64,000 bases of DNA from Nitrososphaerota archaeon (GTDB lineage Archaea > Thermoproteota > Nitrososphaeria > Nitrososphaerales > Nitrosopumilaceae): contig JAJPGU010000006.1 of the NCBI GenBank assembly GCA_021325615.1, forward strand, positions 1-64,000. The letters are read 5' to 3'. The notes under the pieces were generated by a model that did no database searches, was not told the origin of the DNA, and was given only the letters and a program-made list of their open reading frames with translations. The translations under genes were made by a program, and so were the position numbers. Positions 57,500-64,000 of this stretch are shown here, piece by piece. Each line of letters opens with the position of its first letter. Position 1 is the first letter of the stretch.

Positions 57500-57727
57500 A
57501 TGACCACGGTTGTTTCTGCAAAGATACCGGACGAGCTGAGAAAAAAAGCAAGGGAACACCATATCAACATAAGTCAGGTAGTAAGAAAGGCAATCGAGGA
57601 GGAAGTAAAAAGAAGGGAGGCAAGGAACCTGTCAGAAGACCTCGGTAATATAGGTCGCGTGCTGCAAAAAAACGTGAGCAAGAGGGAGATTGTAAGAGCC
57701 GTAAGATCCTCGAGAAATGAAAGATAG
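57500..57727 (+). CDS. vapB: VapB-like ribbon-helix-helix antitoxin
   Basis: Protein of 75 residues. The N-terminal strand-helix-helix TTVVSAKIPDELRKKAREHH, then NISQVVRKAIEEEVKRRE, is a ribbon-helix-helix domain; the basic C-terminal tail likely binds the toxin. It overlaps vapC by 11 bp. Confidence 0.88.
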   Translation: MTTVVSAKIPDELRKKAREHHINISQVVRKAIEEEVKRREARNLSEDLGNIGRVLQKNVSKREIVRAVRSSRNER

Positions 57728-58121
57728 CCTCTTTGACGCTAGCGCCCTGCTGAATCTTTTACGAAACAAGGAATCAAGATCGATAAAAATCCTTGATGAT
57801 CAACACGTGCTGGATCTGACCCTCTACGAGGTCTCAAACGCCATATGGAAACTCTCCTATCGGGAAAACAAACTTACACGCGAACAATCACGTCTCTTGC
57901 TTGATTCCATATTGACCTTGCTATCGCGAATGCAGACGAATAACATCAAGGGACTCGAAAAACACGTGTATGACCTTTCCACAAAGGAAGGTCTTACAAT
58001 TTACGACGCGTCTTACCTTGCAGTAGCGGAAAGATCGGGTCTTGTTCTTGTAACTGATGACCTGCAATTGGCAAAATCGGCAAGAAAATACGTAAAAACC
58101 ATCAAAAGCGACGATCTTTGA
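57717..58121 (+). CDS. vapC: VapC-like PIN-domain RNase toxin
   Basis: Protein of 134 residues. Conserved acidic residues are visible in LFDASALLNLL, LYEVSNAIWK, TIYDASYLAVAE and LVTDDLQLAK, the metal-binding quartet of PIN nucleases. Cleaves tRNA or rRNA in characterised VapC proteins; the target here is unknown. Confidence 0.9.
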   Translation: MKDSLFDASALLNLLRNKESRSIKILDDQHVLDLTLYEVSNAIWKLSYRENKLTREQSRLLLDSILTLLSRMQTNNIKGLEKHVYDLSTKEGLTIYDASYLAVAERSGLVLVTDDLQLAKSARKYVKTIKSDDL

Positions 58122-59337: not shown

Positions 59338-60168
59338 TCAGGTGTTCTTCAGCTTGGTCTCAAGAAAAGGCCCAGCCCCGTCCCAGCAGTGTGTGAAATA
59401 GTCAAGGCACCACTCGTGGAACCTTGGGTCGTCCGAGTAAAACCCCTCGCTGATGTCTGGGCTGCCGTCAAGTTTTGGAAACATGATGCAGGCCTCGTTC
59501 TCGTTTAGTACCGCAACAGTCCTGATGCCGTCCTTCATCCTGCGCTCCACCTTTCCCTCCTCTATCATCTTTTTGAAGCCGTGCTTTTCAAGGATCTCCC
59601 TCCTGTCGTTAGGGATGATTGCGGAGCTTGAGAACACGGAACGAAGCTTCACCCCGCCCTTTACCTTCCTTACTATGGGCTCGATGAAATCAGTGGTATA
59701 GGGAACCTCAAAGAGCACGTTGCAGATGTACTTGTCGGCCGAGTCGTAAATCTCCCTCCACTTTTCAAGGACCTTGACAAACCCCTTCACGTGCCTTCCG
59801 GATTCCAAGGCTCCCGCCCTTTGGAGGAACTTGTCCGAGATGTCTGCAAAGCCGTGGCCCTTGAGGTAGGCCTTGTTCTCGGAAAGGAACCTGACAAGCG
59901 TCACCTGGCCGTAAAGGAGCCTGCCGGCGGTGCTTATGGAATATGACCCGTCCGAGTCCTTTGATATCAGGCCTGCCCTTGCAAGCCTCTCAAAGTTCCT
60001 GAACACCTCTGGCACGGTTGCGTCCAGCTCCTTTGCCACTACGGAGACCTTCTGGTTCTGGCCGTAGAGCCGTGAGAGGATCTCAAGCCTCTGCTCGCTT
60101 GCAAGCTCCAAGAACTCTGCCGCTGCAGATCCCAACCCCTCCCTCACGGCCTCTCTAACACATGCCAT
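59338..60168 (-). CDS. FilR1/DUF1724-like winged-helix regulator
   Basis: About 276 residues. A winged-helix DNA-binding domain (LASEQRLEILSRLYGQNQKV, VPEVFRNFERLARAGLIS) is joined to a C-terminal domain like that of archaeal FilR1/DUF1724 regulators: PYTTDFIEPIVRKVKGGVKL, FSSSAIIPNDRREILEKHGF and FYSDDPRFHEWCLDYFTHCW. Such domains are thought to sense small ligands. I use ATG 60168; the frame is open to 60210. It is divergent from the first cyclase gene. Confidence 0.82.
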   Translation of the reverse strand: MACVREAVREGLGSAAAEFLELASEQRLEILSRLYGQNQKVSVVAKELDATVPEVFRNFERLARAGLISKDSDGSYSISTAGRLLYGQVTLVRFLSENKAYLKGHGFADISDKFLQRAGALESGRHVKGFVKVLEKWREIYDSADKYICNVLFEVPYTTDFIEPIVRKVKGGVKLRSVFSSSAIIPNDRREILEKHGFKKMIEEGKVERRMKDGIRTVAVLNENEACIMFPKLDGSPDISEGFYSDDPRFHEWCLDYFTHCWDGAGPFLETKLKNT

Positions 60169-60213
60169 CAATCTAAAGATTATTCCATGCCTTATGAGGT
60201 GGATTTGCATCAG

Positions 60214-60249
60214 GAGCTAACCGGTTGCAGTACAAGCTAAGTTGCGGTT
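60214..60249. promoter_or_regulatory. Candidate operator shared with the Lrp/NitrOD5 intergenic region
   Basis: Between the divergent regulator and cyclase genes, AGCTAAccgGTTGC (60215-60228) is followed by GTACAAGCTAAGTTGCGGTT (60230-60249), two versions of AGCTAA plus GTTGC. The same words occur at 63037-63090. Confidence 0.4.
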
Positions 60250-60262
60250 ATGACTCCATGTG

Positions 60263-60946
60263 ATGAAGATACCAATGATGGGGCGCAGAGGACCTTCCGC
60301 ATATCTCAGGAGAGAGGAGCTTGCCACTCTGGTAAGGGAGAACCTAAAGCGCGCAGACCTCCTTGGGGGCATGTCAAAAAACTACTGCGTCGGGCTTGTC
60401 GACGTAGCCAACTCTACCGTCAATACTGCCCGGATTCCAAGCAGCAAGATGGGCGAGTACTATGGTATCTTCCTTAATGCCATGACTACAATAGTGGAGG
60501 AGTTTGGGGCAAAGGTCATAAAAAACATAGGCGACAGCCTGCTGTACTATTTTCCAAGGACAGACTATGCCTCAGACAGGGACTCTTTCCTTGACGTGCT
60601 AGAGTGCAGCCTTGCGATGGTAGACTCTCATGACACGCTGAACTGCATCATGACAGAGAGGTCCCTTCCGCGGACGGACTATCGGATCTCGGCAGACTAT
60701 GGCATCGTCACAAAATCCCCCACCCGGGGGGGAGAGGACCTCTTTGGGCCGACCGTAAACCTGTGCACAAAGATTAACGGGGCGGCTCCCCCAAACGGGT
60801 TTGTAATCGGCGGGGACCTGTTTCAATTAGTCAAGGCGCTCAGGTGTTATACCTTTGGCGTGCTCGGCTCATACGGCCTTGGTCTAAAGTTCAGCTATCC
60901 CGTATACACGGTACAAAGGCGCGCACCGAACATTAGCTTGCAGTGA
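60263..60946 (+). CDS. Class III nucleotide cyclase domain protein, short form
   Basis: About 227 residues. The two metal-binding Asp are at about 47 in CVGLVDVANSTV and 91 in KNIGDSLLYYF, followed by RISADYGIVT and LFGPTVNLCTKINGAA, in the order and spacing of class III adenylate/guanylate cyclases. No transmembrane or sensor domain is evident; there are about 40 residues before the catalytic core. Product (cAMP, cGMP or other) unknown. ATG 60263 or GTG 60260. Confidence 0.82.
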   Translation: MKIPMMGRRGPSAYLRREELATLVRENLKRADLLGGMSKNYCVGLVDVANSTVNTARIPSSKMGEYYGIFLNAMTTIVEEFGAKVIKNIGDSLLYYFPRTDYASDRDSFLDVLECSLAMVDSHDTLNCIMTERSLPRTDYRISADYGIVTKSPTRGGEDLFGPTVNLCTKINGAAPPNGFVIGGDLFQLVKALRCYTFGVLGSYGLGLKFSYPVYTVQRRAPNISLQ

Positions 60947-61162
60947 TAGGGCTAAGCTCAAAGCGCAAGCTGCTGTAATATGGTACCATGTCCATTAGAC
61001 TGCATGAATCAACATTTCAGAGAGTTTTCCGCAAGGGGAGGCGGCGGTGGCAACCTTATTGCCAGCCTTGGAGACTTTCATGATTGGACCCCGGCGTACC
61101 GGCAATAGAATAATCTTCTAGAACCATCTACTTATTAGAAGCGGGATTGCAGTTACCCTTGT

Positions 61163-62572
61163 TTGCTAAAGGCAAGGGCCGGTCACAAGATAAGGAAGAT
61201 TGCCGAGGTGCTGGGCCTGCTAGAGGAGAAGGGCAAGGGCAGGGACTGGCTTCTTGAGGAGCTGAGGAGGCACAAGATAAAACTCGCAGTGGTTCCGACA
61301 AACGCATATGACATTCTTTGTGCGGCCCCGAGTGATTTTATATCGCACATTTCGAGGCTGCTGCAGAACGACGAGTTCCTAATCGAGGACGTCCGCACGC
61401 TTACCAGCACGTACCACTGGTTCTTTACGGATATCGTGGGAAGCTCAAGCCCCTCGATATCGACAAAGGAGCAGGCCCGCAAGATACTTGTATTGACAGA
61501 CCTCATCCGCAAGTCCGATACCTTCCGCCACAACCCAGCCTCGTCGGTTGTGCTGACTACGGGCGACGGCATGGTGATCGGGTTCTCTGACAGCCCGGAA
61601 AAGCCGCTCAGGCTTGCCATCGAGACCCAGAAGGCGATCTCGCGCTACAACCTCCTGCGTACCACGCGGGAGAAGCTGCTCATCAGGGTTGGAATTGACA
61701 CGGGGCCGGTATACTCGATTGACGACCTGAATGGAAACAAGACCTTCTGGGGCCCTGGAATAATCACGGCTAGGCGGGTGATGGATCTCGGGGGCCCGAT
61801 GCAGATCTTTGCCTCGTCTAGGATTGCAGATGACATCAGAAGGCTCTCGCCCGAATACAGGGCAATCATGCACCCAGTCGGTGATTATGCGGTAAAACAC
61901 GGGGAGCAGCTCCTGATTTACAACATTTACGGCGACGGGTTTGGGAACAGGAACGCGCCAAAAAAAGGGAAGGTGCAAAAGAGCAGGGCTGCGGAGCAGG
62001 ACCTCAAGAACAGCAGCACGTTCTACTTTTCATCAATAGACCTGGGAGTAGACATAACGGACCCAAGGAGGATGATGGCGCGCCACACTTGGACATGGGA
62101 CATAAAGAACATATCTCCCGAGCCAAAGGACCAGATATTCTACTACCTTGACGGCGACACGCCGCGCGACTTTGCAGACATGAATGTCACGGTAACTGAC
62201 GGCGAGGGCAGGGAGCTTGAGATAATATCGCTCAGCGTAAACAAGCCGTACCACAAGGAGTTTATCGTAAAGCTCTCAAGGCCGCTTAGGCCAAACCAGA
62301 AGGGCCAGAGGATAACCCTCCAGTACGACTGGGAGGAGCCCGAGCGCAACTTTTTCTACAAGATATCTTCTGATTGCAAGCGGTTAAGGTACAGGTTTAC
62401 CATGCCCAAGGGCCCGGAGGTCAAAAACAGGGTGCTGATGATAGACCCTGAGACGGGCTCAAAATCTCATGCCTCGCCTGCCGCAAAGGTGAGGTCCCTC
62501 AGGGGCAGGACTGAGATAACCTGGCAAAAATCCGACCTTGCCGCATACGAGGCCTACAGGTTCGAGTGGTAA
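61163..62572 (+). CDS. Class III nucleotide cyclase domain protein with C-terminal beta domain
   Basis: Protein of 469 residues. A helical N-terminus (about 1-80) precedes a cyclase core with Asp90 in WFFTDIVGSSS, Asp135 in LTTGDGMVIGFSD, RVGIDTGPVYSI and TFWGPGIITARRVMDLGGP. The C-terminal part (about 265-450) is an unassigned domain with HTWTWDIKNISPEPKDQIFY and LQYDWEEPERNFFYKIS, all-beta in appearance. TTG start; TATA-like CTTATTAGA about 32 nt upstream. Lies 0.2 kb after the first cyclase. Confidence 0.8.
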   Translation: MLKARAGHKIRKIAEVLGLLEEKGKGRDWLLEELRRHKIKLAVVPTNAYDILCAAPSDFISHISRLLQNDEFLIEDVRTLTSTYHWFFTDIVGSSSPSISTKEQARKILVLTDLIRKSDTFRHNPASSVVLTTGDGMVIGFSDSPEKPLRLAIETQKAISRYNLLRTTREKLLIRVGIDTGPVYSIDDLNGNKTFWGPGIITARRVMDLGGPMQIFASSRIADDIRRLSPEYRAIMHPVGDYAVKHGEQLLIYNIYGDGFGNRNAPKKGKVQKSRAAEQDLKNSSTFYFSSIDLGVDITDPRRMMARHTWTWDIKNISPEPKDQIFYYLDGDTPRDFADMNVTVTDGEGRELEIISLSVNKPYHKEFIVKLSRPLRPNQKGQRITLQYDWEEPERNFFYKISSDCKRLRYRFTMPKGPEVKNRVLMIDPETGSKSHASPAAKVRSLRGRTEITWQKSDLAAYEAYRFEW

Positions 62573-62598
62573 GGCTTCCCTGCCTGATAGCCTTGGTT

Positions 62599-62724
62599 CT
62601 AGGATTCCGGCCAGTCCCCGCCGCAGTCGGGGCACCTTCCCCTGAACCCGTGGTATTTCGGCTCGTGGACCACCAGGGCATTGCCACACCCGCATGACTG
62701 GCACTGGGTCGTCTCGTAAACCAA
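62599..62724 (-). CDS. Small zinc-ribbon protein downstream of the Lrp-like gene
   Basis: From TTG 62724 the product is about 41 residues: VYETTQCQSCGCGNALVVHE after Met, then GRCPDCGGDWPES, with two CxxC pairs. It begins 2 bp after the Lrp-like stop codon, so it is cotranscribed. The function is unknown. Confidence 0.6.
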   Translation of the reverse strand: MVYETTQCQSCGCGNALVVHEPKYHGFRGRCPDCGGDWPES

Positions 62725-62726
62725 CC

Positions 62727-62996
62727 TCAGAGCCCCGCCTTGGTGCAGACAAGCGTCGTAGTGCAGCGGATCTCGGGGATGCGCCGGATCTTTGACGCAA
62801 TGATGTAACCCAGCTCCTCCGCGGTCTCGGCCTCGACAAGAGCCAGGATGTCGTGCCTCCCTATTGTGAGGGTGCACTCCTTTATCTCGGGGAACGTGCT
62901 TATCTCGTCAAGCACGTGCCCCTCCGAGCCCGACTCGCAGTTTATCATCAGGTATGCCCTTGACCCAACCCTGTCAATTTGGAACATTTCTGACAT
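62727..62996 (-). CDS. Stand-alone Lrp/AsnC ligand-binding (RAM) domain
   Basis: About 89 residues: VGSRAYLMINCESGSEGHVL, FPEIKECTLTIGRHDILALV, RRIPEIRCTTTLVC form the beta-alpha-beta-beta-alpha-beta RAM fold that binds amino acids. There is no helix-turn-helix, so it probably modulates a full-length Lrp partner. ATG 62996 is chosen because residues before it (from 63071) do not fit the fold. Confidence 0.85.
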   Translation of the reverse strand: MSEMFQIDRVGSRAYLMINCESGSEGHVLDEISTFPEIKECTLTIGRHDILALVEAETAEELGYIIASKIRRIPEIRCTTTLVCTKAGL

Positions 62997-63036
62997 GATA
63001 TCATACCAGCACGATGCCATGTATCCCGAGCTTGCG

Positions 63037-63090
63037 GTACAAGCTAAGGACTTGACACCCAAGCTAAGCATGTGATATCAAGTTGCGGTT
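63037..63090. promoter_or_regulatory. Candidate operator matching the one at 60214-60249
   Basis: GTACAAGCTAAG at 63037-63048, AAGCTAAG again at 63061-63068, and AAGTTGCGGTT at 63080-63090 lie between the divergent Lrp-like and NitrOD5-like genes. Identical words flank the first cyclase gene. Confidence 0.4.
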
Positions 63091-63105
63091 CGAAGTTACG
63101 AAGGT

Positions 63106-63387
63106 ATGGCGTCAAAGAACAACATAAGGGAGGCAATAGTGTCATACGCGATTGAAAAGGCGCTGGTTGAATACGGCAATTCCGCCTACGAGGAGGTGTA
63201 CTACAAGCTGCACAGCGAGTACGCGCTCCACTTTGTAGACTGCTTCCACAATCCTGACACACTCCGCAAGGTCCTCCTTGAGACATTCGGCGATGCCTAC
63301 TGCAACGTGGTCGAGCTTATCCGTGCCCAGCTGGGGGAGTATTCAAGCCAGGAGCATGTGCGCAAGTTCCTCAAGGCGCTAGAATAG
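63106..63387 (+). CDS. NitrOD5-like small output-domain protein
   Basis: Protein of 93 residues, all helical: IREAIVSYAIEKALVEYGNS, YKLHSEYALHFVDCFHNPDT, then LLETFGDAYCNVVELIRAQL and EHVRKFLKAL. The pattern resembles the thaumarchaeal NitrOD5 output domain as I remember it; I could not confirm this by search. Such domains are thought to act in signalling or transcription control. Confidence 0.62.
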   Translation: MASKNNIREAIVSYAIEKALVEYGNSAYEEVYYKLHSEYALHFVDCFHNPDTLRKVLLETFGDAYCNVVELIRAQLGEYSSQEHVRKFLKALE

Positions 63388-63429
63388 TCCCGTACGGTCC
63401 GGTATGTGCAAACGATATATTTGAAACTC

Positions 63430-64000
63430 TTACCTGTGAGATTCCTGGCATGTAAGGACCGACCCTTCGCCAAACCTGGACGCATAGATTACGGCATGGT
63501 GGTTCTTCTGCAACCTTTCCATCCATTCCTTTTTCCTAGTGGGCTCTATCTTGGAGATGTCGTAGGGACAGATTAGCGAGCCGCCAAAATCCTCAAAGGC
63601 AGAGTGGGTCAGCTCCTCAAGCTCCATCTCGACTGACATTCCCTTCCTTGTGCTGACGTCGGCTACAATCCTTGACACTATGCGAAAGGGCATGCTCAGG
63701 CTTGAAAGCAGGATGCCGATGTTCCGCTTGCAGTCGTCCATTATCTCCTTCTGGTCCCCCTCTACCCTGTGAATTTGGTGTACCTTGAGCATCCCTGTCT
63801 GGAAGTATTTCAGGGGGATGCCGTACGTGAGCATGCGGATGACCACCGAGCCTGAATCCTCGTCGGTTGCATACACGCACTGCTCGTCAAGGGCAAGCCC
63901 GTTCCGTATGAACCTGAACTCGATAAGCCTTGCGTATTCCGGCTCCTCATAAAAAAGGCAGATGTGCTGCTTGTCCCTTATTGAATCGATAAACCTGAAC
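63430..64000 (-). CDS. MEDS (DcmR-type sensory) domain protein, 5' end outside window
   Basis: The frame is open from the window edge to the stop at 63430-63432, giving about 189 C-terminal residues. HICLFYEEPEYARLIEFRFI followed by NGLALDEQCVYATDED is the MEDS pattern found in DcmR and other archaeal sensor proteins with a RecA/KaiC-like fold. The part upstream, possibly with an HTH or kinase domain, lies beyond the window. Confidence 0.8.
   Translation of the reverse strand, partial: FRFIDSIRDKQHICLFYEEPEYARLIEFRFIRNGLALDEQCVYATDEDSGSVVIRMLTYGIPLKYFQTGMLKVHQIHRVEGDQKEIMDDCKRNIGILLSSLSMPFRIVSRIVADVSTRKGMSVEMELEELTHSAFEDFGGSLICPYDISKIEPTRKKEWMERLQKNHHAVIYASRFGEGSVLTCQESHR

Follow-up and report, generated by a model that had tools for sequence, protein, structure and literature searches.

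Does the compact group of sensor, cyclase and regulator genes at positions 59,338–64,000 form one signalling circuit, and would such a circuit link ligand sensing to cyclic-nucleotide production and transcription, as the sequence-only reading of this DNA had proposed? The window, i.e., the whole stretch of DNA analysed, covers bases 1–64,000 of an 81,814-base contig in a 1.83-Mb genome. Among named organisms, the cluster's closest relatives are found in Candidatus Nitrosotalea sp. TS and FS (further relatives occur in Thaumarchaeota MAGs), indicating that the host is a Nitrosotalea-type ammonia oxidiser. Here, "Nitrosotalea" denotes 37 genomes of the same genus, a label resting on the matching contigs of the cluster's relatives. 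The literature searched gave no description of a regulon or cyclase circuit of this kind for these archaea. The analysis below favours, as the probable explanation, an autoregulated signalling regulon of Nitrosotalea and its close relatives.

Gene content of the cluster

The leftmost gene (59,338–60,168, − strand) encodes a winged-helix transcription regulator of 276 aa when read from the ATG at 60,168 (the ORF is open to 60,210), as judged by helix-turn-helix (HTH) matches, fold and tree. It had been called a FilR1/DUF1724 protein. That label stood only in part: the score against PF08350 (FilR1_middle) was 15.8 bits (E = 0.015), below the cut-off of 27, the best match in the regulator family reached E = 8e-4, and the profile search recorded no PF08350 match in the genome. 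The best Foldseek matches were to TrmBL2 (E = 1.9e-6, probability 1.00, TM 0.37 over the whole chain), obtained with a model of modest confidence (mean pLDDT 71) whose C-terminal part is of low confidence, and "TrmB/FilR1-like" is thus a fair description. TrmB/TrmBL2 and FilR1 regulators of archaea appear to share with it an N-terminal winged helix plus a C-terminal sensory-type domain; unlike them, the regulator studied here falls below the FilR1_middle cut-off, has no receiver domain and is linked to a cyclase/sensor regulon with a tandem operator of 20-bp period.

The remaining genes were mostly borne out at or near the places first proposed. A stand-alone RAM (Lrp/AsnC ligand-binding) protein of 86 aa without an HTH lies at 62,727–62,987 on the − strand (ORF open to 63,071; PF01037, E = 1.1e-11), one of 17 RAM matches in its genome. 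Directly after its stop codon comes the zinc-ribbon microprotein (62,599–62,724, − strand; 41 codons, TTG start, ending in WPES), which is conserved in module loci and is probably co-transcribed with RAM. Zinc-ribbon proteins of 40–60 aa, all ending in WPES, also lie beside class III cyclases in several genera of ammonia oxidisers (L093, L095, L097–L099, L101, L102, L109). The MEDS-domain protein (200–212 aa, − strand) runs from 63,430 to the window's edge at 64,000 and on to about 64,032–64,068, and its PF14417 match (E = 8.8e-12; 45.6 bits versus a cut-off of 29.8) confirms the original call.

The NitrOD5 label given to the 93-aa protein (63,106–63,387, + strand) was not upheld, with PF11537 matching nothing in this protein, in its family or in the whole genome. 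The protein belongs to no Pfam family and is a member of a multi-copy Nitrosotalea family with four matches in its own genome. Since N. devanaterra is reported to carry seven stand-alone NitrOD5 copies (Galperin et al., PMC5847659), the 93-aa protein may have a remote NitrOD5 link that PF11537 misses. The two genes called as cyclases, described below, are both of class III cyclase type by profile matches, the large one also by predicted fold.

Conserved gene order and a shared tandem operator

A comparison of gene order had been suggested as one check on the grouping, and the order proved to be conserved in Nitrosotalea, so the objection of missing synteny falls away. The full block (93-aa gene, RAM, large cyclase, small cyclase, regulator) was found in the window and in four other genomes (G005, G026, G016 and G020). 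In a further genome, G018, a contig end cuts off the 93-aa gene and the rest of the block is present; in G023 the locus is in fragments. In most of these genomes, MEDS adjoins one end of the block; the best MEDS match of G020 is found on a different contig. Reduced versions of the block, made up of MEDS, regulator, small cyclase and RAM, occur in G022, G032 and G036; G014 has a similar set, and G011, G034 and G035 have other subsets of the module. Outside the genus, regulator and cyclase genes are next to each other in L093, L095, L099 and L108 and only a short way apart in L112 and L114. The cluster genes are under purifying selection (dN/dS of about 0.05–0.15 where dS was measurable) which, together with the conserved order, argues that the cluster is more than a product of chance.

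Comparison of intergenic regions revealed a repeat, AGCTAA-N14-AGCTAA, that resolved into a shared operator, TTG-N7-AGCTAA-N4-TTG-N7-AGCTAA. This element is new, being absent from the sequence-only reading. Its logo shows TTG (−10), AGCTAA (0), TTG (+10) and AGCTAA (+20), flanked by ATAT/TATA-like boxes at about −23 and +33. By pattern scan, one operator lies between the divergent regulator and small cyclase genes (60,205–60,240, + strand; perfect core 60,215–60,240) and another between the divergent RAM and 93-aa genes (63,032–63,067, + strand; perfect core 63,042–63,067). The scanned core, AGCTAANNNNTTNNNNNNNNAGCTAA, has exactly two mismatch-free copies in the 1.83-Mb genome, at 60,215 and 63,042, both within the cluster. 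The MEDS promoter in the window lacks an operator. A degenerate third operator (60,933–60,958, − strand) has one mismatch in the AGCTAA halves and no TT at its centre; at the equivalent place, G026, G018, G016 and G020 have a perfect copy.

Between this third operator and the large cyclase is a conserved gap of about 200 bp, which in six genomes holds an open reading frame of 34–35 codons, always with its ATG 45–46 bp from the operator. Variable sites at codon positions 1, 2 and 3 number 13, 11 and 21, respectively, and relatives contain the stretch ..GGGGGNLVAT... In the window, this frame corresponds to a 34-aa microprotein (61,004–61,108, + strand), the first gene before the large cyclase, which is unannotated and was absent from the sequence-only reading.

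Next, we scanned 61 genomes, i.e., the 37 of the genus and 24 of an outgroup. Perfect sites numbered 49, in 18 of the 37 genus genomes, with none in the 24 outgroup genomes; the reversed pattern, used as a control over the same 61 genomes, gave 3, ruling out the operator as a chance repeat. With every site placed, 45 of the 49 were found to precede a gene of a module family by 15–221 bp: small cyclase (13), regulator (13), RAM (12), 93-aa (12), MEDS (10) and large cyclase (6), where each divergent site is counted twice. The upstream windows make up an estimated well under 1% of a genome, so this placement is not due to chance. Two of the other four sites precede secreted-protein genes like the one at 70,512 on this contig (G022, G035), one is inside a ferritin-like gene, and one is near a secreted NHL-repeat-type protein. 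The operator sits just upstream of the TATA region, roughly 36–54 bp from most first-gene start codons, and accompanies the module families even where their genes are scattered (G011, G024, G027). This specificity for the same gene families, even when they are dispersed, argues that the cluster belongs to one regulon: across genomes, the member genes share a specific cis-element upstream, as regulon members would. At the level of sequence, the syntenic set with tandem-operator promoters comprises the regulator, the two cyclases, RAM, the 93-aa protein, MEDS, the zinc ribbon and the second microprotein. The proposal that these genes form one circuit is supported, and better than the sequence-only reading could have foreseen, by conserved synteny and by a family-specific common operator in 18 genomes.

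Which protein binds the operator? The regulator family tree separates a slow-evolving core clade, with about one member per genome, from a faster-evolving, cyclase-linked accessory clade, to which the window's regulator belongs. The accessory-clade regulators examined adjoin module genes, except for the copy in G023, where no small cyclase was found. Among the 19 genus genomes that are at least 94% complete, the accessory regulator occurs in 10 of 10 operator-positive and 0 of 9 operator-negative genomes (Fisher about 1e-5, phylogeny ignored). MEDS is likewise present in all 10 operator-positive genomes of this set, and it has no DNA-binding domain. One 80%-complete genome, G027, has operators and no regulator match at E ≤ 1e-20. 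Because the accessory regulator tracks the operator and MEDS lacks a DNA-binding domain, the former is the best candidate and likely binder. We infer its identity from co-inheritance, which falls short of proof, as regulator, MEDS and operator are inherited together and the binder is not isolated among them.

Several other features flank the cluster. Overlapping CcdA/VapB-like antitoxin and PIN toxin genes lie at 57,500–58,121 of the window; other Nitrosotalea genomes also have them close to the cluster or to cyclases (L066, L067, L079). To the right of the cluster, contig C28 encodes large secreted proteins (64,198–72,236; L001): a subtilase-like protein of 1,515 aa, a metalloprotease-like one of 526 aa and one of 574 aa that belongs to no Pfam family. 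Proteins related to these turn up again close to the module, and the operator stands upstream of the genes for two relatives of the 574-aa protein. Further on (73,263–74,758; L001 18,264–19,759) are adjacent lookalikes, judged by eye, of an AbiEi-type antitoxin and an AbiEii nucleotidyltransferase toxin.

The two cyclase-type proteins and their inputs

Class III cyclases use two metal-binding Asp residues, a purine-reading Lys/Asp pair and a catalytic Asn and Arg. The small cyclase-type protein (60,263–60,946, + strand; 227 aa) has no Pfam match, and its family profile matches the adenylate cyclase CyaC (1wc0) at 2.5e-8. In the family alignment, Asp47, Asp91, Lys87 and Asp159 are invariant; we take the first two to be the metal ligands and the other two to be the adenine positions, counting from an invariant Gly-Pro. 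Asn166 is kept in all aligned members except that of G022 (Ser), and Lys170 stands where the catalytic Arg is expected. All of the class III residue set is present but the Arg, and these residues make it plausible that a cyclic purine nucleotide is produced by the small cyclase at least. In strain TS (G016), its gene is split by a frameshift (G016:C10:17660-18323, L067), and the rest of the module is intact.

The large cyclase-type protein (61,163–62,572, + strand; 469 aa) matches PF00211 (E = 1.9e-5), and the structure model places N-terminal helices at residues 1–68, a class III cyclase fold at 81–255 and a C-terminal all-beta domain at 287–469. Asp90 and Asp135, presumed metal ligands, and Arg205 are invariant. 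The other positions are substituted (Lys to Leu131, Asp to Thr/Asn, Asn to Ile/Leu), the metal-binding, purine-reading and catalytic roles being those usual for class III cyclases. The protein is cyclase-like, departs from the class III residue set and is not predicted to be a canonical purine cyclase; that it catalyses cyclase chemistry is doubtful.

For the fold of its beta domain, the top 50 matches of a PDB search were to the cyclase domain alone. The domain resembles Ribophorin_I in 8 of 15 members (best 2.9e-4) and in an HTH-fused copy (1.2e-6), a likeness that points to no function. Elsewhere, it is fused to an HTH-like stretch (L024, 1,303–2,016) or forms a separate protein near a TrmB regulator (L033, 1,489–1,992), and these associations suggest a sensory role. 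Homologues of the large cyclase that lack the operator reside inside gene clusters for sugar nucleotides and polysaccharides (L070, L071, L079).

The statement that no member of the cluster is a classical two-component protein holds, but close relatives of the small cyclase are tied to receivers and kinases. In Nitrosotalea, relatives are fused to receiver domains (L068, 5,569–6,687; L072, 10,143–11,333), the L068 fusion lying about 3 kb from the module. Relatives follow a sensor kinase and a receiver in Nitrososphaera (L111, also L113) and a receiver in Nitrosopumilus (L112). Three Nitrososphaera loci (L111, L113 and L110, the last with its receiver uncalled) have a dCache sensor histidine kinase, a stand-alone receiver and a class III cyclase in a row, which suggests a two-component route to cyclase in the phylum. 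These receiver-linked enzymes of ammonia-oxidising archaea belong to the same cyclase subfamily (about 40–46% identity), whereas the window's cyclase has neither receiver nor kinase and is associated instead with a winged-helix regulator, MEDS and RAM. Judging from gene context, this setting appears to replace the phosphorelay input in the Nitrosotalea small cyclase.

Alternative explanations and the question of a receptor

Bacterial one-component CRP/cAMP regulons likewise combine cyclases with a DNA-binding regulator that has a defined operator. The system described here differs in lacking a CRP/PF00027 domain and in placing the cyclases themselves under the operator. The CRP-type cyclic-nucleotide-binding domain, PF00027, was found in none of the 37 genus genomes; the same search was positive for 10 of 14 named controls and, above the cut-off, for 8 outgroup genomes. 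A rival reading, with which this absence agrees, is a purely transcriptional circuit in which the cyclase-fold proteins sense nucleotides without catalysis and no cyclic nucleotide is made. The large protein, without purine-reading Lys/Asp and catalytic Asn, and the small one, with Lys for the catalytic Arg, would fit such a role. However, both metal-binding Asp residues are invariant in both families, and receiver domains and kinases apparently act through relatives of the small cyclase, as one would expect if it were an enzyme, which leaves this reading unlikely, though worth keeping in mind. We give a similarly low probability to the idea that the accessory regulator, or some other member of the regulon (for example, the zinc ribbon or the 93-aa protein), serves as a new, non-CRP receptor for the cyclases' nucleotide.

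Two further explanations appear far less probable. The first is that lineage-expanded sensor families merely came to lie side by side without forming a unit: RAM (17 matches) and the 93-aa family (4 matches) are indeed expanded in the genome, and the proteins have no known interaction. Conservation of the order in many genomes, and a cluster-specific operator that follows the families even when they are dispersed, contradict a grouping by chance or convenience, which we regard as very improbable. A Pycsar-like anti-phage system, i.e., a pyrimidine cyclase with a cyclic-nucleotide-gated effector, would share the class III cyclase fold with PycC (which acts with PycTIR or PycTM), and PADLOC PycC models do match the small cyclase (1.4e-6) and members of its family (up to 1.3e-12); the contig also carries toxin-antitoxin and AbiE-like genes. 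Yet conserved, one-per-genome housekeeping cyclases match the same models much more strongly (E about 1e-28), which marks the match as generic. Moreover, the small cyclase retains the adenine-reading Lys/Asp, PF00027 is missing from all 37 genus genomes, and no cyclic-nucleotide-binding effector neighbours the cyclase. Given the stronger housekeeping matches and the lack of such an effector, we rejected this explanation, to which we attach minimal probability.

In the autoregulated signalling regulon that we favour, the accessory TrmB/FilR1-like regulator would likely bind the operator and control its own gene along with the sensor and cyclase genes. Plausible sensors of small molecules would be MEDS, RAM and the large cyclase's beta domain, and the small cyclase, at least, could plausibly produce a cyclic purine nucleotide. 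Ligand sensing would thereby be coupled to cyclic-nucleotide production and to transcription. The cluster bears on the open question of what archaea do with cyclic mononucleotides: cAMP measurements exist for several archaea, yet which enzymes produce it is unclear in the model organisms investigated (PMC8646023). In the present case, a single conserved unit joins class III cyclases to a transcription regulator and a defined operator in organisms that lack a CRP-type receptor, which narrows the receptor question to a short list of candidates and one operator. If one of these candidates were indeed a non-CRP receptor, this would be, according to the literature searched, the first cyclic-nucleotide-responsive transcription circuit known in archaea.
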